NCBI RefSeq assembly: GCF_002252565.1
Contig: NZ_NPML01000007.1
Span: 186,001-250,000, forward strand
Length of the DNA stretch: 64,000 nt
DNA from: Petroclostridium xylanilyticum
Lineage (GTDB): Bacteria; Bacillota; Clostridia; SK-Y3
Direction: 5' to 3'
Positions 3,976 to 24,228 of this stretch are shown here, in pieces (position 1 is the first letter of the stretch; every line of letters begins with the position of its first letter). The position numbers were made by a program, and so were the translations under genes. A model generated the notes under the pieces. The model was not told where the DNA came from, did no database searches, and saw only the letters and a list, made by a program, of their open reading frames with translations.

Positions 3976-4241
3976 AAACTCTCGTCCTAATTAAGTATAA
4001 ATCTTAGGGACGAGAGTCATTCACGCGGTACCACCCTAGTTGATGAAGAACAGATACGTTCCTCAACCACTCTGCAGTCTTAACGCAACCAACGCCGATG
4101 GATACTTATCTACCTTCACCATCAGAACTCGGGAGCTGCTTCTATCAACTTATGCAAAGAGTCTTTCAGCCGGGGACTCTCTCTCTGGATACACTATATT
4201 GATATACTATTCTCCGTCATTGTACTTTCAATATTATTCTA
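3976..4241 (-). promoter_or_regulatory. T-box riboswitch leader of alaS
   Basis: On the minus strand the leader carries the conserved T-box sequence AGGGTGGTACCGCG (4022-4037). A strong terminator hairpin follows at 3978-4016 with stem arms ACTCTCGTCC/GGACGAGAGT and a T-rich tail. Uncharged tRNA-Ala would stabilise the antiterminator and allow alaS transcription (family knowledge). In the Stem I region the sequence GAAGCAGCTCCC (4131-4142) offers two alanine codons, GCA (4137-4139) and GCT (4134-4136), as the specifier. I cannot decide between them without folding. Placement next to alaS fits either. Confidence 0.95.
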
Positions 4242-10956: not shown

Positions 10957-11325
10957 TTATCCTTCTTTTTTTGCAGGTGCTTTCCTGAAAGTTTCATATA
11001 TTCCCATGGCAAATAAAAATATTCCAAACATTTTTTTTAACATAACTGACGGGACAGATACTGCAAAATATGAACCGAGGATTGCTCCTGCCACCCCAAA
11101 TGCTACTATTATGAGCGCAAGCTTCATATCAATTCTTTTATTTTTTATATGAACAAAAAGGGCAATACTTGCTGTAGGTACAAAGTATAAAAGATTGATA
11201 CTTTGTGCAATATGTTGATCTACGTTTAATATAAAAACCAAAACAGGAATGAGGATTGTACCTCCCCCTATCCCCATCCCGCTTATGATACCTGAGGCAA
11301 GTCCGGCTAAAATCGGAATAATCAA
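10957..11325 (-). CDS. Half-size TauE/SafE family permease, second half
   Basis: A 122-residue membrane protein with about four hydrophobic helices. It begins LIIPILAGLASGIISGMGIG followed by GGTILIPVLVF, which is one repeat of the TauE/SafE (TSUP) sulfite/anion exporter fold. It starts at TTG one base after the stop codon of the upstream half, with AAGGATGG as ribosome-binding site inside that gene. Together the two proteins equal one canonical eight-helix transporter of about 250 residues. Pairs of half-size TSUP genes occur in Clostridia (recollection), so a natural heterodimer is preferred over a frameshift. Substrate unknown. Confidence 0.8.
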   Translation of the reverse strand: MIIPILAGLASGIISGMGIGGGTILIPVLVFILNVDQHIAQSINLLYFVPTASIALFVHIKNKRIDMKLALIIVAFGVAGAILGSYFAVSVPSVMLKKMFGIFLFAMGIYETFRKAPAKKEG

Positions 11326-11326
11326 G

Positions 11327-11698
11327 TTATAACACCATCCTTACTGCAGCAATAATCATAAATATGCCAAATACCTTTCTAAGAATATTTGAAGGTATTA
11401 TTTTTAATATACGAGCCCCTATATATCCTCCTATAATACCGCCGATAGATACCTGCCACGTTAGGTTCCAATCTACAAAATCGTTTTTAATGTAAGAAAA
11501 CACACTGACCAAAGTTAATGGAAGAATAATGGCTATAGCAGTAGCATGGGCTTTATGTTCTTCTACATCCAGAATAATTTCCATGGACGGTACCGCGATA
11601 GTACCTCCTCCTGACCCAAACAGGCCATTGCACAAACCGGTAACAACGCCAATTATAGAATATTTAAAGAATTTTTTAACCTTCCTCAATAATCGCAC
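11327..11698 (-). CDS. Half-size TauE/SafE family permease, first half
   Basis: A 123-residue membrane protein carrying a complete TSUP repeat, with GVVTGLCNGLFGSGGGTIAV near residues 17-36, hydrophobic helices and a GGYIGARILKIIPS motif. This corresponds to the N-terminal half of full-length TauE/SafE permeases. The partner gene starts one base after its TAA in another reading frame. Candidate roles for the family include export of sulfite, sulfoacetate or other small organic anions. Nothing nearby identifies the substrate. Confidence 0.8.
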   Translation of the reverse strand: MRLLRKVKKFFKYSIIGVVTGLCNGLFGSGGGTIAVPSMEIILDVEEHKAHATAIAIILPLTLVSVFSYIKNDFVDWNLTWQVSIGGIIGGYIGARILKIIPSNILRKVFGIFMIIAAVRMVL

Positions 11699-12754: not shown

Positions 12755-12960
12755 AACTTTCACACTTATATAAACCCCACCGCGCCGTGCTATAGGCGCA
12801 TTTTAAACCCGCTCTCGCAGGTGGGTGCCCTCCTGACTGCTTTATATTTCCCCTGGCCATAATGGGGGGCCTATATGCCACATTCAGAGCACGGGCTCCC
12901 ATATCATTTGTGTTGGTTCAAAATCGCACCTTAATCACGCACACAGCAGGGTACGCTTCA
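12755..12960 (-). ncRNA. ssrS: 6S RNA
   Basis: About 205 bases of minus-strand sequence fold by eye into one long rod. ACCCTGCTGTGTGC near the 5' end pairs with GCACGGCGCGGTGGGGT near the 3' end. GGTGCGATTTTGAACC pairs with GGTTTAAAATGCGCC, and GGGAGCCC pairs with GGGCACCC. A small hairpin ACCTGC-GAGA-GCGGGT sits on the 3' side of the central bubble, with an apical CCCC-rich loop. This promoter-mimicking shape and length are those of 6S RNA, which binds sigma-A RNA polymerase in stationary phase. A consensus promoter and a terminator bracket it exactly. Ends are estimates. Confidence 0.85.
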
Positions 12961-13021: not shown

Positions 13022-14005
13022 TTATGCAGATGTTTCAGCTTTCTGGTTTATCAACACACCCCATTTTCCGCACTTATCTCCCCACCGGGCTACCGGCTGA
13101 CCATCGGACATAATTTCTACCACTTCACACATATTGGAACAATCGTGACATTCAAAGCTTCTTGCCTTATACTCTCTATCCACCAGATCAAAACCATAAA
13201 AACTGGTAGTCCCTGTCCTTCGTATTTCTTCTTTTGCCAGGATGGCTGCTCCAACTGCACCCATTACATCAAAGTGCTCCGGAATAATAATCTTTTTACC
13301 CAGTTCCCTTTCAAAAGCTGCAACAATACCTATATTTGCAGCTACACCACCTTGAAATAAAATAGGGTCCAAAATTTCCTTCCCTTTTCCCAGGTTGTTT
13401 AAATAGTTCCTTACCAAAGCTTCACATAACCCGTTAATAATATCTTCTATATTTTGCCCCGTCTGCTGTTTATGAATCATATCCGATTCTGCAAAAACTG
13501 CACACCTTCCTGCAATTCTTACAGGAGTTGTGGACTTTAATGCATACTTTCCAAATTCCTGAATCGGAATATTCAACCGCGAAGCCTGACGGTCAAGAAA
13601 TGAACCTGTTCCGGCTGCACATACGGTATTCATGGCAAAATCATATACGATTCCATCTCTTATAATAATGATTTTTGAATCCTGCCCTCCGATTTCCAGT
13701 ATTGTCCGCACTTCCGGACAATAGTCCAGTGCAGCTACAGCATGGGCGGTTATTTCATTCTTTATAATATCAGCTCCTACTATTACTGCTGCAAGCTGTC
13801 TGCCACTTCCTGTCGTACCTACTCCTGCAATTCTAAACTCTTCTTTCACGCTCTGCTTTAGTGCCGTTAATCCATCTTTCAATGCCTTAATTGGCTGTCC
13901 CTGTGTTCTTATATATAATTTTCTATAAACTCTTGACTGTTCATCTAACAGTACCAAATTAGTACTTACGGAGCCTACATCAATTCCCAGATAAAACGTA
14001 TTCAT
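13022..14005 (-). CDS. BadF/HgdC-type ATPase, CoA-dehydratase activator-like
   Basis: A 327-residue ASKHA-fold ATPase. It starts MNTFYLGIDVGSVSTNLVLL (phosphate-binding loop) and has CAAGTGSFLDRQASR and GRCAVFAESD. Their two cysteines match those holding the inter-subunit [4Fe-4S] cluster of HgdC homodimers, which drive ATP-dependent low-potential electron transfer to 2-hydroxyacyl-CoA dehydratases (family knowledge). Unusually, an additional Cys-rich tail follows (FECHDCSNMCEV and GDKCGKWG at the end), possibly a second metal site. Its start overlaps the preceding gene by 26 bases, so it is the last of a coupled three-gene operon. The real electron acceptor is unknown. Confidence 0.88.
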   Translation of the reverse strand: MNTFYLGIDVGSVSTNLVLLDEQSRVYRKLYIRTQGQPIKALKDGLTALKQSVKEEFRIAGVGTTGSGRQLAAVIVGADIIKNEITAHAVAALDYCPEVRTILEIGGQDSKIIIIRDGIVYDFAMNTVCAAGTGSFLDRQASRLNIPIQEFGKYALKSTTPVRIAGRCAVFAESDMIHKQQTGQNIEDIINGLCEALVRNYLNNLGKGKEILDPILFQGGVAANIGIVAAFERELGKKIIIPEHFDVMGAVGAAILAKEEIRRTGTTSFYGFDLVDREYKARSFECHDCSNMCEVVEIMSDGQPVARWGDKCGKWGVLINQKAETSA

Positions 14006-15095
14006 TATTTCTCAATTTTCTCTCCTTTCTTCTGGCAAGCATATCAACAAATGCTTCAATCCTGGTCTTATAACCTGCTTCTCCGGTTAATTCATCAATA
14101 ATCAGCGTTAGTATAGGTATATCTAAATCATTGCTCACTGCAGGCAAAATACTTTCAGCAACAATTTCCGGCATACAGGTAAAAGGATATAGCTGTATCA
14201 CTCCATCATATCCCTGCCGGGCATATAATACACTATTCCCAATCGTATCCTGGGCATGTCCGCCTATCATTGTACTCAAATATGGCTGTGCAGCTTCTTC
14301 GTAAGGCCTGTGTTTTCTAAGGTGCAATGCCTGCTTGATCATATGTTCTACAATCCAGTGGCTTACATTTAGTGAGCGGTCTACTTCAATGCCCATACTG
14401 CCCAGCAGCTGCTCAATTTTAAAATTTGTAAAAGGTTCAATAACAGTATAAATCTCTCCCACAATACCAATCTTTAATGGAGCTATTGACGGATCTGTCT
14501 CAATTGCTTCCAGCTCTTTCCTGGTTTCATTGATTAACCTGATAATGTTTTCGGGTCCCTTCACTTTAGAAACCTGGTGCTGAAATTTTCTCATAATCCA
14601 GTCGGTCTTCCCTTTTACTTTCTCACGAGGCCTTACCTGAAAAGACAATTTATCCAACTGATCTAATTCAATGGATACTTTTGTAGCTTTTTTGATGGCT
14701 ATAAGTGCCTTCCACAGACTTTGCCTTCCAATGAGCTTCCTCACTCTTCTTAAAAACTCTTGAATATCACCGTTAGGTAATTCCAATACAAACAAATCCA
14801 CATTATAACCTAAATCTTTCAGGATTTCTCTTTGGACTTCGGCATAATATCCGAATCGGCACGGACCGCATCCTCCTGCCATTACAATGGTATCTGCCCC
14901 TTTTTCTATGCTCTCGATAAAATTTCCGATATTTATTTTCAAAGGTAAACATGCCAACTCGGGGGCATATTTTGTACCCAGTTCGAGTGTACGCTTACTG
15001 CATACAGGGGGGGTAATAAAATCTATGTCCAGGTATTCAAAAAGTGCTTTTACTACAATACATGTATTACCCATGTGCGGAAATGTTACCTTCAT
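13980..15095 (-). CDS. 2-hydroxyacyl-CoA dehydratase (HgdB)-like protein
   Basis: A 371-residue protein beginning MKVTFPHMGNTCIVVKALFE, with cysteines in TPPVCSKRTLELG, APELACLPLKIN and AGGCGPCRFGYYAE. It ends with the ELTGEAGYKTRIEAFVDML motif shared with the next gene upstream. It belongs to the activase-related, HgdB-like proteins of Clostridia (CoA protein activase annotations). The conserved cysteines suggest an iron-sulfur cluster reduced by the neighbouring ATPase. Its start overlaps the upstream gene by 29 bases with GGAGG before the ATG. No dedicated substrate gene, CoA transferase or acyl-CoA enzyme is nearby. Confidence 0.82.
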   Translation of the reverse strand: MKVTFPHMGNTCIVVKALFEYLDIDFITPPVCSKRTLELGTKYAPELACLPLKINIGNFIESIEKGADTIVMAGGCGPCRFGYYAEVQREILKDLGYNVDLFVLELPNGDIQEFLRRVRKLIGRQSLWKALIAIKKATKVSIELDQLDKLSFQVRPREKVKGKTDWIMRKFQHQVSKVKGPENIIRLINETRKELEAIETDPSIAPLKIGIVGEIYTVIEPFTNFKIEQLLGSMGIEVDRSLNVSHWIVEHMIKQALHLRKHRPYEEAAQPYLSTMIGGHAQDTIGNSVLYARQGYDGVIQLYPFTCMPEIVAESILPAVSNDLDIPILTLIIDELTGEAGYKTRIEAFVDMLARRKERKLRNNEYVLSGN

Positions 15096-16053
15096 TTCTT
15101 TTCCTCCATCTAATCATATCAATAAATGCCTCGAGACGCGTATTAACACCCGCTTCTCCAGAATGTTCATCTAATGTTAGCAGAAAAAATGGTATATTTT
15201 TTTTCCGCCTTATCTTTCTTTCACACAAATCGGATACGAAAGCATCTATCCCGCATCCAAAAGACATCATATAAATGATTCCATCTATACGGTCCATGTC
15301 CAATAAATGTAATGCAGACCCCAGCAGCCGTTTGCCAAAACTCCAAAACATTTTTTTTGGCAGCAAATCAGCCTTATATTGTATAATGTCATCATCCAAA
15401 AGTTCAGGAGTAATAACTCTTATACCTTGTTGATGTAATTTTGATAGAATATCCATACTGATATACTGGTCATATATATTATAGACATGTCCTATCAAAG
15501 CAATACATAAATCTCCTTCAGTATTGTCCGATACTTTTTTATTTTCAAGTATTTCAACGGGATATCTTCCCTGTCTTATTTTTTTCATAAACTCAGCTTG
15601 TTGTTTTAATGCTTTATCATAAGCTGTTTTAATCGCATATGTATCACTGGAAAATAATTTCCCAATTTCATTGAATGTATGATATAAATTTGATTTCGGA
15701 CTCCTTAAATTTATCTCAGTGTCAATAACAGGTGGTAGTCCTCTTATGGAGAATTTTACCATCTCCGGGAGACCACAAAATTTGGGACATATATATTCAC
15801 CTTGTGCTACACTTTTTAATCTTGGTACGAACAGGTAATCCACCTTATCCTTTAAATTTAATATATGTCCGTGAAATAACTTGACCGGCAAACATGCTTC
15901 GTCGACACAATGTTTTACACCGTCATTTAATATTGCTTTAGTAGTCTTTTCAGACAGGATTATTTCAACCTTTAATTCTTCAAAAAAGGTCTTCCACATA
16001 GGAAAGTATTCATAATACAACAATGCCCTGGGTATTCCAACTTTGACTGCCAT
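15067..16053 (-). CDS. DUF2229 / acyl-CoA dehydratase activase-related protein
   Basis: A 328-residue protein starting MAVKVGIPRALLYYEYFPMW, the usual opening of the DUF2229 family. Conserved cysteines lie in HCVDEACLPVKLFHGHI, YICPKFCGLPEM and SFGCGIDAFVSD. It ends EHSGEAGVNTRLEAFIDMI, paralogous to the end of the following gene. In some bacteria this domain is fused with BadF-type ATPases into very large proteins. Here the parts are separate and translationally coupled. The start follows GAGGTGAAAAG. It probably forms one iron-sulfur complex with the next two gene products, a role inferred from fusion and operon structure. Confidence 0.82.
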   Translation of the reverse strand: MAVKVGIPRALLYYEYFPMWKTFFEELKVEIILSEKTTKAILNDGVKHCVDEACLPVKLFHGHILNLKDKVDYLFVPRLKSVAQGEYICPKFCGLPEMVKFSIRGLPPVIDTEINLRSPKSNLYHTFNEIGKLFSSDTYAIKTAYDKALKQQAEFMKKIRQGRYPVEILENKKVSDNTEGDLCIALIGHVYNIYDQYISMDILSKLHQQGIRVITPELLDDDIIQYKADLLPKKMFWSFGKRLLGSALHLLDMDRIDGIIYMMSFGCGIDAFVSDLCERKIRRKKNIPFFLLTLDEHSGEAGVNTRLEAFIDMIRWRKRNEGNISAHG

Positions 16054-16134
16054 CTTTTCACCTCATACATTTTTTGTCCTCATGTATTATTGCTATTTAC
16101 TCAAATTTTTATAACAAAAATTTTTAAAACATAA

Positions 16135-16170
16135 AAAAATACACCTAACATTTACCGTTAGGTGTATTTT
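16135..16170 (-). terminator. Terminator after the DUF1292 gene
   Basis: The stem AAAATACACCTAAC and its complement form a 14-base-pair hairpin with a seven-base loop and T-rich ends. It lies 12 bases beyond the DUF1292 stop, separating the ireB-ruvX operon from the HgdB-like operon. Confidence 0.9.
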
Positions 16171-16181
16171 TATGGAGCAAA

Positions 16182-17064: not shown

Positions 17065-18012
17065 CTACACGATCTTAATTGCAAAATTTTTGCAGCGGCT
17101 TCCACAATAGCCGCATAGCACACATTTTTCCGGTTTTACCTGAAGCCTGTTGTTTTGGATATAAATTGCCTGATGGGCGCATGCAGACAGGCATTGGCCG
17201 CAGCCTTCACACCATTCTTCCACATGTAAATATCTTTTTTTACTTTTTAATCTTTCCAGAACTTCCCGATCAACTTTCCTGCCTTCAAAGTAGCTTATAT
17301 TCGCGATTACTTCTTCTATTGACTGCATTCCTAAAGCAATGGAATGGATATAAGGAATAGATAATACATAGTCCAAACACCTTTCTACATGTTGAATTAA
17401 ATTCCCGCCTCCAAGGGGCTTCATTGCATATATTCCTATTCCTTTATCATAAGCTTTCCTGATAGCTGCAAGCATATCTTCAATGGAACCATCCACAATA
17501 CCAATGCCTTTATAGTTGACAATAGGATGTATAACGTCTATGACATTCATCCCGCATGCTGCTTCCACTGCTGCAACATGATGGGTTGAAATACCTACAG
17601 CTTTTATAATACCTCTTGCTTTACAGTCGAAAAAATACTCTAAAGCCTCCCAATGTCCCTTGAGTGTTAATTCACTTTCCTGCTCATGCAGCATAAAAAT
17701 GTCAATAACATCTCTCTCCAACTCTCTTCTTGCTTTTTCCACACTTCGCATCGCTCCATCCCTATCATAGGCATAGGTTTTTGAAGCTATAATCACATCT
17801 TTTTTGGCTTTTTTTACCGCCACTGCTATATACGGATACGTTCTATACAGTTCTGCAGTATCAATAAAATTAATTCCCCGGTTAAACGCTTCTGATATCA
17901 CTTCTGCGCCTTGTTCAACAGGCAGGTTTGCCTGCAGAGGTCCAACGGTAAGTCCTCCAAAACACAATCTCGAGACCTTAAGCCCTGTCTTCCCTAATTC
18001 TCTGTATTCCAC
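17065..18012 (-). CDS. Aldo/keto reductase with C-terminal 2x[4Fe-4S] ferredoxin domain
   Basis: A 315-residue protein. An AKR barrel starts [20 protein letters not shown], with tetrad residues visible in FIDTAELYRTYP (Asp, Tyr), IASKTY (Lys) and MLHEQE (His). It is followed by two cysteine motifs, CEGCGQCLSACAHQAIY and CVLCGYCGSRCKNFAI, which should bind two [4Fe-4S] clusters. Such fusions are common in anaerobes and may couple carbonyl reduction to ferredoxin. The substrate is unknown. The start is GTG at 18012, overlapping the upstream membrane-protein gene by 35 bases and preceded by a GGGGG purine run. Confidence 0.92.
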   Translation of the reverse strand: MEYRELGKTGLKVSRLCFGGLTVGPLQANLPVEQGAEVISEAFNRGINFIDTAELYRTYPYIAVAVKKAKKDVIIASKTYAYDRDGAMRSVEKARRELERDVIDIFMLHEQESELTLKGHWEALEYFFDCKARGIIKAVGISTHHVAAVEAACGMNVIDVIHPIVNYKGIGIVDGSIEDMLAAIRKAYDKGIGIYAMKPLGGGNLIQHVERCLDYVLSIPYIHSIALGMQSIEEVIANISYFEGRKVDREVLERLKSKKRYLHVEEWCEGCGQCLSACAHQAIYIQNNRLQVKPEKCVLCGYCGSRCKNFAIKIV

Positions 18013-20131
18013 CTTCTTCTTCCCCCAGTAAAAAATATAGCAAACTAAATATCAAAAAAATATTGCTTGTTGCTGCCACGACAACCCCGGAGTCATTTAC
18101 CAACATTCCTGTTATACTTGCAACAAGTATAGAATACCATGCTATTGAAAAACTTTTATATTTATTAAACAACCTATGCAGCGCACCACGCGGCTTTAAA
18201 AACAGAACTGCCATGACAATTACCGATACCAGTAATACCTCGCTCCATATTGTCCATCTCAACAACTTTAAATTCATCTCTAATTTACGGCGTATAATAT
18301 CAAGCACAGTGCCTATCCCCCCGGAACGGAATTCCAATATCGCTTTAGCCAGGTGTGATTTGTGCTGCGCAAAATAGATATCGTATGCCGCAAAAGCACT
18401 GACTATCAAGGTCATGACAATAAAAAGGCTTATGATTTTTTTTACGGTTATCTTTTTATCATATATATTTAAAATGGCAAAACCAAAGGCAATGGAAGCC
18501 GTAATAGTGCCTCCGACGTTGGCACCAAACATGGATAGTCCTATGACAGGAGTTATCAGCACAAAGACAGCTACGGCAACCCATTTAGGAAACACTTTCT
18601 TATAAACCAGCGGTATAACTCCTATCAGGGTTGTTGCAATAAATACTCCCATATATTCGTTACCCAGCCCGTAATATCTTGCTCCAATTACGGCATCATA
18701 ACCCAAAAGTGACGTCCTATTTAAAGGTCCTTTAAATACCAGATCCGCTAAAATTAAAATCAGTGTGCACCAGGATATATAAATAATGTTTGTCTCTACA
18801 TTTTCAGAAATTATATGTATAGTATAAGCAAGTATTCCGTTTATTCCTATTAGCAATAAGGAAAAGAGAAATAGATTATATACCCTTAGCAAAGGCATTA
18901 AAAATAAAGTCAGCGGACAGGTAAGGGTAAAAAGTATAAGGGTACGCAGGACAATTCCAAATTTTTTGCTGGTTTTATTTTTTAATAAAATGAAAATAAG
19001 CGTTAAAATTAAAAGTACAATCTGAAAGCTAACGTAAGTTTTCAATATAATGGCCCTGTTTTTTGCATTAAAAGCCGTCAGGTAATATAAGCTGAGTGCT
19101 TTTGTGAGATGATTGGCTGTCGTTTTAACTTTTACAGCTTCACCTACTGCCTGGTCTAAAGTTCCTCCAAAAAATGCAGCAATAGTAGGCGCAATATCTA
19201 TGTTCCCTATGATACCTGCTCTTCGCGTTGTATCAGATATAAGCAGTCCTTTGCTTATGTCTTTTCCATATAGAACCACAGGTGAAAGCTTTCTCCCAAA
19301 CCTTGCATCACCCGAGCTATAATGGGGTGAAAGTAAAATTAATAATGTATTGTCCCTATCTACCGCAGCTGCAAGCTTCCCCAGAAAAACATCAATATCT
19401 TTGAGTATCTTATTTTTATCCGCATAAAGTGCCATACCGTTGTTATGATAGTATTCCAGTCTTGACGTATCACCGGTATCAACTACGATGAAGTCATTGA
19501 CAGAATATTTTTTCCTAAAAACTTCGTAGAGCAATTGATAATCAGTCGCATACCCTGGCAATTCGTTACCAGGCAGCATTATATTTTCTCCTATCTCGCC
19601 ATCATCAATCATTCCACGGCTATCCATAGCAATCAATGCGGCAGGAGAGTATTGTATATCATTGTTATCCTGATTTCCTATCAGTGCCGTCTTTAACCCT
19701 TTTTGATGAAAAAAATCTCCCAAAGAGCCAACGCTGACATTGTAGGTATTACTGTCATTGGATGCTATAATGTCATCGATATTTTTAACATATAGGAAAG
19801 TACCTTTACGTTCAACCAAGCAATGGTTTGGAACAGCATCAGCCCGGGTACCCCACCCCAATGTGGCAAACGCCCTTATGCTATCTGTTTTACTGCCCCC
19901 CCGGGTATTCATCAATCCAACTGCACCATGCTCCATTAACTTTTTAACATTTTGCATACTGATAAACTCTTCGAGGTTTGTAAAATTAATAGTTACAATA
20001 ACAGCTTTTCTATGCTCATGCTGACTGGCATACGCAGTAGAAAAGCTGCAAAAAACAACTATGATTGCCAATAGAATATTATGCCTGCTTTTCTTTAAGA
20101 TAGCACCGAACCAATTCCTCCAACAGTTCAT
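17978..20131 (-). CDS. Membrane protein with alkaline-phosphatase-like ectodomain
   Basis: A 717-residue protein. An N-terminal signal/anchor ([18 protein letters not shown], about 19-36) precedes a soluble domain of roughly 320 residues, then about ten membrane helices from residue 365 on. The ectodomain has features of the alkaline phosphatase/sulfatase superfamily: [45 protein letters not shown] and [14 protein letters not shown]. The first metal-binding Asp expected near the N-terminus is not evident (VIVTINFTN), so it may be altered or inactive. Its start overlaps ireB by 53 bases with only a weak ribosome-binding site. A role in envelope modification is inference. Confidence 0.7.
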
Positions 20132-23955: not shown

Positions 23956-24228
23956 ATGCCTTTGTCCCCGTAATAGGGACGAAGGCATATTTTTCCGCGG
24001 TACCACCCTGCTTCTTGCGTGCACTAAAAAAAGTGCCAACAAGCGCTCATTGTCATGTAACGGTTCCCACCGGTATTACTTACTACACGGTTAACTTTTC
24101 AGTAATACAGTTCCAGAGCGAACTTCAGTTAAACTTTTCCAAAAAGTGTTTTCAGCCGGTGACACTTTCTCTCTGATGGCCAGTTTTAACCTACTCTTCT
24201 CCTTCATTACTTTTCAACTTTTAATTTG
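23956..24228 (-). promoter_or_regulatory. T-box riboswitch leader of pheST
   Basis: The T-box core AGGGTGGTACCGCGG (23996-24010) is followed by a terminator hairpin at 23956-23988 with arms ATGCCTTTGTCCC and GGGACGAAGGCAT. In Stem I, GAAGTTCGC places a TTC phenylalanine codon (24120-24122) in the specifier position, which matches the regulated genes. The Stem I apical motifs AGAGAGAAAGTG and CCGGCTGAAA are also present. Antitermination by uncharged tRNA-Phe is expected. Confidence 0.96.

Follow-up and report, generated by a model that had tools for sequence, protein, structure and literature searches.

A three-gene relative of the PlsA/Ger-type reductases that may be expressed in the forespore of anaerobic spore-forming bacteria

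PlsA (with PlsR) and Ger are described as enzymes that convert glycerolipid esters to vinyl or alkyl ethers (PMC12838417, PMC8788747, PMC9702350, PMC13274423). The domains reported for PlsA/PlsR of Clostridium perfringens and its relatives, namely DUF2229/Red1, Red2, and activase domains (PMC12838417, PMC9702350), are also present in a three-gene locus of Petroclostridium xylanilyticum that we analyze here. The three genes (A, B, and C, or collectively the trio) lie in a 64,000-nucleotide stretch of contig NZ_NPML01000007.1 (positions 186,001 to 250,000, forward strand); by "the window," we mean this whole stretch. Ger, from Thermotoga and Desulfatibacillum, is likewise reported to have PlsA-like domains and to convert an ester to an alkyl ether. 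PlsA/PlsR is a long polypeptide with two activase domains, and Ger is also fused and has two activase domains, whereas the trio is divided into three genes and has one activase. The founding paper on PlsA is that of Jackson et al. 2021, whose content we give as relayed by papers that cite it. The Bacillota screened in a 2026 study also have PlsA homologues without the activation domain; their role was left unclear, and the passages about them make no connection with sporulation or with an activase encoded separately (PMC13274423). Gene A fits the description given there and may well be one of these homologues.

Other described systems are more distant. The 2-hydroxyacyl-CoA dehydratases (HadBC/HadI, HgdAB/HgdC) and the class I benzoyl-CoA reductases share the fold of A and B and the activase family of C, but they have little sequence likeness to A or B, and the trio has no adjoining acyl-coenzyme A (acyl-CoA) genes. 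DCCP/DCCP-R of Carboxydothermus is like the trio in its fold and in the ATP-driven electron transfer that we propose below. DCCP is a homodimer with double cubanes, whereas the trio has two different subunits with three invariant cysteines each.

We propose that the trio is a split, three-gene form of the PlsA/Ger branch of BCR/HAD reductases, that anaerobic spore-formers express it in the forespore, and that it most likely acts on membrane-lipid esters. We put the probability of this reading at roughly 45%. The kind of enzyme is known; the split form with a role in the forespore looks new.

An initial annotation of the window, made by a model from the sequence alone, had described three overlapping genes that encode two mutually paralogous proteins and an HgdC-type ATPase with an extra cysteine-rich tail. 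All of this is borne out. The genes are on the minus strand (Table 1) and overlap by 29 bases (A/B) and 26 bases (B/C). DUF2229 is found in gene A (PF09989, E 1e-59), together with the C-terminal portion of HGD-D; HGD-D is also present in gene B, where DUF2229 is weak; and gene C encodes an ATPase of the BcrAD_BadFG/HgdC type (PF01869, E 1.9e-49; TIGR00241, 195 bits with a cut-off of 125). Neither A nor B had any match in the NCBIfam scan. A and B are 23% identical by BLASTP (E 2e-13), and profile–profile comparison relates them with a probability of 99.9 (E 1.8e-36). The E-x-G-E-A-G motif with which both were said to end is real and shared, in the form D-E-x-[ST]-G-E-A-G, and lies near the C-terminus (residues 295–302 of 328 in A and 334–341 of 371 in B) rather than at it. 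Because the order A-B-C and the cysteines recur across many genomes, the trio is more than a chance arrangement.

The cysteines are invariant in the aligned orthologues from the named loci (described below): C54, C89, and C267 in gene A (61/61), C49, C79, and C307 in gene B (65/65), and C129, C168, and C194 in gene C (51/51), as are the four cysteines of the tail of C (C286, C289, C293, and C312; 51/51). By analogy to HgdC, we take C129 and C168 to be cluster ligands. Since the cysteines are invariant, the initial annotation's proviso that they might be lost from orthologues does not apply, and its description of an ATP-driven, cysteine-ligated reductase with its activator is supported. The AlphaFold2 models of A and B are confident (predicted local distance difference test, or pLDDT, of 92.0 and 90.7), and their best solved matches in Foldseek are 2-hydroxyisocaproyl-CoA dehydratase, DCCP, and benzoyl-CoA reductase. 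The VIA Z scores for A and B are 16.1 and 16.3 with 3o3m_D, 15.8 and 16.0 with 7yyl_A, and 15.8 and 15.2 with 8s02_B, with root-mean-square deviations of about 4 over 270–308 residues; other folds begin at a Z of about 10. As modeled, then, A and B have an HgdA/HgdB-type fold. In BzdNO, six cysteines are reported to hold the double cubane (BzdN) and three to hold a single [4Fe-4S] cluster (BzdO) (PMC11971306). Three invariant cysteines per reductase subunit, as in BzdO, would fit one open-site [4Fe-4S] cluster in each of A and B, not a double cubane. The likeness to double-cubane proteins that the initial annotation suggested thus holds for the fold and is not supported beyond it.

By sequence, the nearest relatives of the trio, which that annotation missed, are long proteins that resemble PlsA and Ger. 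Of 99 genomes searched, 71 had matches: trios of the window's type, trios of a second type, and long frames that for the most part measure about 1,000–1,500 amino acids. Against Red1 of 24 of the long proteins, the profile of A scored 124–177 bits; against Act2, the profile of C scored 184–321 bits, and the alignment reached the tail region in 22. These 24 proteins had been picked as matches of gene A; what they add to the likeness to PlsA is therefore limited to the scores and the match of C. As in gene C, a cysteine-rich segment follows Act2 in most of the long PlsA-like proteins examined. Twenty of the 24 were fetched without the 3′ end, which left four for the test of Red2; the order Act1-Act2-Red1-Red2 is found in two of these four complete proteins. 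By comparison, the HgdB of the window genome itself had no match of over 15 bits to the profiles of A and B, and the activase paired with it scored 81 bits with the profile of C. Judged by these matches, the trio corresponds to Act2, Red1, and Red2 as separate genes, and the long proteins would be PlsA or Ger. It might be regarded as PlsA in unfused form, because one long PlsA chain, with two activase and two reductase domains, would equal two copies of C plus A and B.

In eight named trio genomes, PF09989 matched a frame of 1358–1443 amino acids in four, a frame of 966 amino acids in one, and only frames of under 400 amino acids in three. No long PlsA-like protein was found by the PF09989 search of the window genome (3.86 Mb in 41 contigs), as all four matches there are frames of 331–399 amino acids that belong to two trios. 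The second of these, also missed at first, is a diverged A-B-C trio on another contig (L016:7668-10934, contig C18). The same genome has one separate HgdB/activase pair (L017), again overlooked, whose HgdB matches the NCBIfam model double_cubane at 49 bits, below the cut-off of 350. In the control panel, Bacillus subtilis had no PF09989 match.

To describe the neighbors of the trio, we used 80 named loci, taken from among the matches listed in a contig scan with 19 orthologues of A (at least 551 relatives were confirmed). In 25 of the 80, a gene of the spoVA set lies directly upstream of the trio, on the same strand and within 300 bp: 19 belong to a GerA-family cluster (SpoVAF by position), four to a SpoVAC/SpoVAEB cluster, and two to a SpoVAE1 cluster. 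These loci come from Desulfotomaculaceae (six), Desulfallaceae (four), Peptococcaceae (four), and, with one each, Thermincolaceae, Syntrophomonadaceae, Dethiobacteraceae, Thermoanaerobacteraceae, and Halobacteroidaceae; the others have no family assignment. Counting any spoIIA, sigF, spoVA, dacF-type, or ytfJ gene within the locus, 33 of the 80 have one. Among the 58 of 69 same-strand upstream neighbors that were scanned, there were 19 GerA, four SpoVAC/VAEB, one SpoVAE1, and one GerAC; the 11 left out are seven copies of a Tissierellia gene, three DUF1292 genes, and one fragment. The downstream neighbors are varied (46 of 68 scanned; most of those omitted repeat lysA-, PALP-, or comparable clusters). 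The 25 families listed for the scanned neighbors on both sides include no CoA-transferase or acyl-CoA dehydrogenase. The remaining loci have neighbors of other kinds than spoVA genes. In three loci of one lineage (L052:8438-9937, L053, and L059), the gene directly upstream of the trio is a cardiolipin synthase (for L052, TIGR04265 at 414 bits, cut-off 290). The initial annotation had allowed for orthologues that sit with a specific fermentation pathway; a specific association does exist, with sporulation genes and with the promoter pattern described below, and not with fermentation.

A conserved gene of about 480 amino acids, from a cluster of 14 loci that are mostly from Tissierellia, lies directly upstream of the trio in 13 of them (for example, L055:8439-9884), and the one member tested had no Pfam or NCBIfam match. 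For some other Tissierellia neighbors, an identity as spmAB was dropped because they are only "Gate"-domain proteins with weak NCBIfam matches. A GerAC-type germination gene is directly upstream of a trio in one genome (G089; L143:5843-7156). In three loci (L136, L141, and L142), a second B-like gene extends the trio to a four-gene variant, A-B-C-B.

In many loci, the region upstream of gene A has a pattern that resembles a forespore promoter. In five genomes (that of the window and G001–G004), this region has invariant TATAAAA and ATAATA blocks. We scored the 150 bases 5′ of gene A at the 93 loci with a gap of at least 60 bp, using consensus strings for the sigma factors. The sigF scores were higher than those of 722 other upstream regions (p 1.5e-12), as were the sigG scores (p 5.8e-6); at the same loci, the scores for sigE (p 0.75) and sigA (p 0.995) were not raised, and we set aside control by either of these. 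A strict pattern, KHWTA-N15-GNNMATAHTA, is found before gene A at 34 of the 99 main loci, which include several near-identical relatives, and before 6 of 1291 other genes; for a looser pattern, these counts are 43 of 99 and 15 of 1291. The dyad TATA-N20-TAATA ranked first among 87,721 in a search without a preset pattern (32/99 versus 20/1331, corrected p 1.6e-21). Because the strict pattern had been fixed after the sigma scoring was seen, we used a later set of 20 loci, where it precedes 6 of 20 trios and 0 of 88 other genes; one of these loci (L202) may overlap one of the first set (L109), and three (L192–L194) come from genomes whose copies are all of the second type or divergent. The strict pattern was not found before any of 11 second trios, any of four copies from the four-gene variants and relatives, or any of three divergent copies. 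Because its relatives lack the pattern, the second trio may have another role. The long PlsA-like genes also differ from gene A, before which the pattern is enriched: 0 of 24 have the strict pattern and 1 of 24 has the looser one. Lineages without linkage to spoVA have the forespore-type pattern too, and the looser pattern changes 21 times on a quick tree with weak deep branches. In the window, a hairpin resembling a terminator separates the trio from the DUF1292 gene upstream of it, which suggests that transcription of the trio starts separately.

The genomes with the trio are mostly those with spore genes. Of 291 genomes from the window's class, 91 have a trio-type A (E of 6.0e-63 or better) and 69 have the main type (E of 1.5e-105 or better); these were sorted by hand, with a fragment in G250 excluded, and the copies near the thresholds were not checked individually. 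SpoVAD is present in 83 of the 91 genomes with the trio versus 129 of the 200 without it (p 8e-7, not corrected for relatedness). In the main-type genomes, SpoVAD is present in 65 of 69, and the other four (G033, G101, G211, and G284) have sigG above the cut-off. The other trio-type genomes without SpoVAD are G007, G036, and G268, which have no sigG near the cut-off, and G278, whose sigG scores 412 bits against a cut-off of 457; by score, these four have divergent or second-type copies only.

In the mechanism that we propose, a homodimer of C would be reduced by a donor such as ferredoxin, perhaps via its four-cysteine tail, and ATP hydrolysis would drive single electrons at very low potential from the bridging [4Fe-4S] cluster of C to an A–B heterodimer. 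By analogy with the superfamily, the open-site clusters of A and B (one [4Fe-4S] per subunit) would carry out a ketyl-type reduction of a carbonyl. The most likely target would be the ester carbonyl of membrane phospholipids, which would give ether or vinyl-ether lipids in the forespore. The substrate is the least certain part of this proposal. We favor the membrane lipids of the forespore, at odds slightly above those of all other substrates combined, because the closest relatives act on glycerolipid esters, because SpoVA proteins are reported to reside in the spore inner membrane (PMC8943000), and because a cardiolipin synthase adjoins the trio in one lineage. A fuller version, which we hold tentatively and would not be surprised to see fail, is that a dedicated ATP-driven, radical-type reductase turns forespore lipid esters into ethers or vinyl ethers before dormancy, unlike in B. 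subtilis, and that this is the role of the PlsA homologues without the activation domain.

Several observations weigh against a forespore reductase of the PlsA/Ger branch. The match of B to Red2 is clear in only two of the four complete long proteins. The trio of the window adjoins neither spoVA nor other spore genes, and of the two patterns it has only the looser one, found upstream of two further window genes as well. The strict pattern is absent 5′ of 65 of the 99 main copies. Although ytfJ and dacF are forespore genes in Bacillus, the pattern was found for ytfJ in 2 of 7 loci and for dacF-type genes in 1 of 27 (the looser pattern; background matches); as so few of these genes match, the pattern is insensitive. 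The trio is also absent from most genomes with SpoVAD (129 of 212, with six weak ones excluded; counts of 211 or 214 give the same conclusion), so it would be accessory and not needed for sporulation as such.

The same evidence from promoter pattern, linkage, and cysteines would apply equally if a forespore ATP-driven reductase acted on something other than a lipid, such as an acid bound to CoA or acyl carrier protein, an intermediate related to the cortex or to dipicolinic acid (DPA), or a cofactor. We regard this as a serious possibility, although not the one we would choose. Acyl-CoA esters are the substrates of most of the structurally known relatives, and the linked spoVA genes are described as concerned with DPA transport (PMC5629000, PMC13059800). 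On the other hand, the relatives nearest in sequence are the PlsA/Ger-like proteins, and no gene for acyl-CoA, cortex, or DPA synthesis recurs among the neighbors scanned. It is improbable, in our judgment, that the trio is instead a general anaerobic enzyme, with the spoVA neighborhood an old shared gene order and the pattern an AT-rich ordinary promoter. That would account for the concentration of the spoVA linkage in three families (14 of 25 loci), for the unrelated genes around the trio of the window, and for the many copies without the strict pattern; it would not account for sigA and sigE scores that are not raised, for the lack of the pattern before the second trios and the long PlsA-like genes, or for its presence in lineages without spoVA linkage.

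The proposal of the initial annotation, a double-cubane-type reductase of small molecules, now seems very unlikely to us. DCCP is indeed among the best fold matches of the models of A and B, yet each subunit has three invariant cysteines rather than six, the subunits are two different proteins rather than a homodimer, and neither has an NCBIfam match, while it is another gene of the genome that matches double_cubane, below the cut-off. A fermentative 2-hydroxyacyl-CoA dehydratase was set aside because there are no acyl-CoA neighbors in the window flanks or among the scanned neighbor families, and the selenium-linked activase, as described in the relevant part of PMC5322559, was set aside because its neighborhood is different.

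A forespore reductase of the PlsA/Ger branch would bring low-potential, ATP-driven iron–sulfur chemistry into the forespore of anaerobes, which is not linked to sporulation in the literature searched. In the main texts of open-licence papers, we found no sporulation or spore-lipid role for this enzyme family, and a check of main-text terms in papers on sporulation of C. perfringens, C. difficile, and C. acetobutylicum, as well as in a comparative one, revealed no such gene. For Clostridium thermocellum, searches with Cthe_1329 and the guessed tags Cthe_0350–0355 found no expression data for the trio. The proposal also offers a role for the extra PlsA homologues that were left open in the relevant passages of the 2026 paper on Bacillota lipids (PMC13274423). 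If the lipid reading is true, it supplies a testable pathway to some of the unusual nature of the spore inner membrane; if it is not, the trio would nonetheless indicate that sporulation includes a reductive step yet to be described.

Table 1. The trio and adjacent features, in coordinates of the window.
Feature	Positions	Strand	Size or remark
Gene A: reductase subunit, DUF2229 + C-terminal HGD-D part, Red1-like	15067..16053	minus	328 aa (amino acids)
Gene B: reductase subunit paralogous to A, HGD-D, Red2-like	13980..15095	minus	371 aa
Gene C: HgdC/Act2-type ATP-dependent activase	13022..14005	minus	327 aa
Possible forespore (sigmaF/sigmaG-type) promoter, TTATA-N18-AATAATA	16085..16114	minus	61 bases 5′ of gene A; looser pattern only
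Terminator-like hairpin, interval between the DUF1292 gene and the trio	16135..16171	minus	

By Pfam, the ten flanking genes scanned in the window are a ThiF-family gene, DUF1292, RuvX, an aldo/keto reductase, two TauE halves, an aminotransferase, a 2-hydroxyacid dehydrogenase, DUF1015, and one without a match. The scan of these ten found no acyl-CoA gene, CoA-transferase, or acyl-CoA dehydrogenase, in agreement with the initial annotation, which had noted that none was nearby. The two TauE-family genes are half-length and adjacent (10957-11698, minus strand), and the looser promoter pattern lies upstream of the first one. A predicted protein of 717 amino acids (17978-20131, minus strand) has no Pfam match. 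Two T-box leaders (RF00230, 129.9 and 124.5 bits) are at 23972-24216 and 4003-4229, both on the minus strand. Just 3′ of the trio and on the same (minus) strand, there is a 6S RNA at 12770-12955 (RF00013, 98.7 bits, gathering threshold 46.4).

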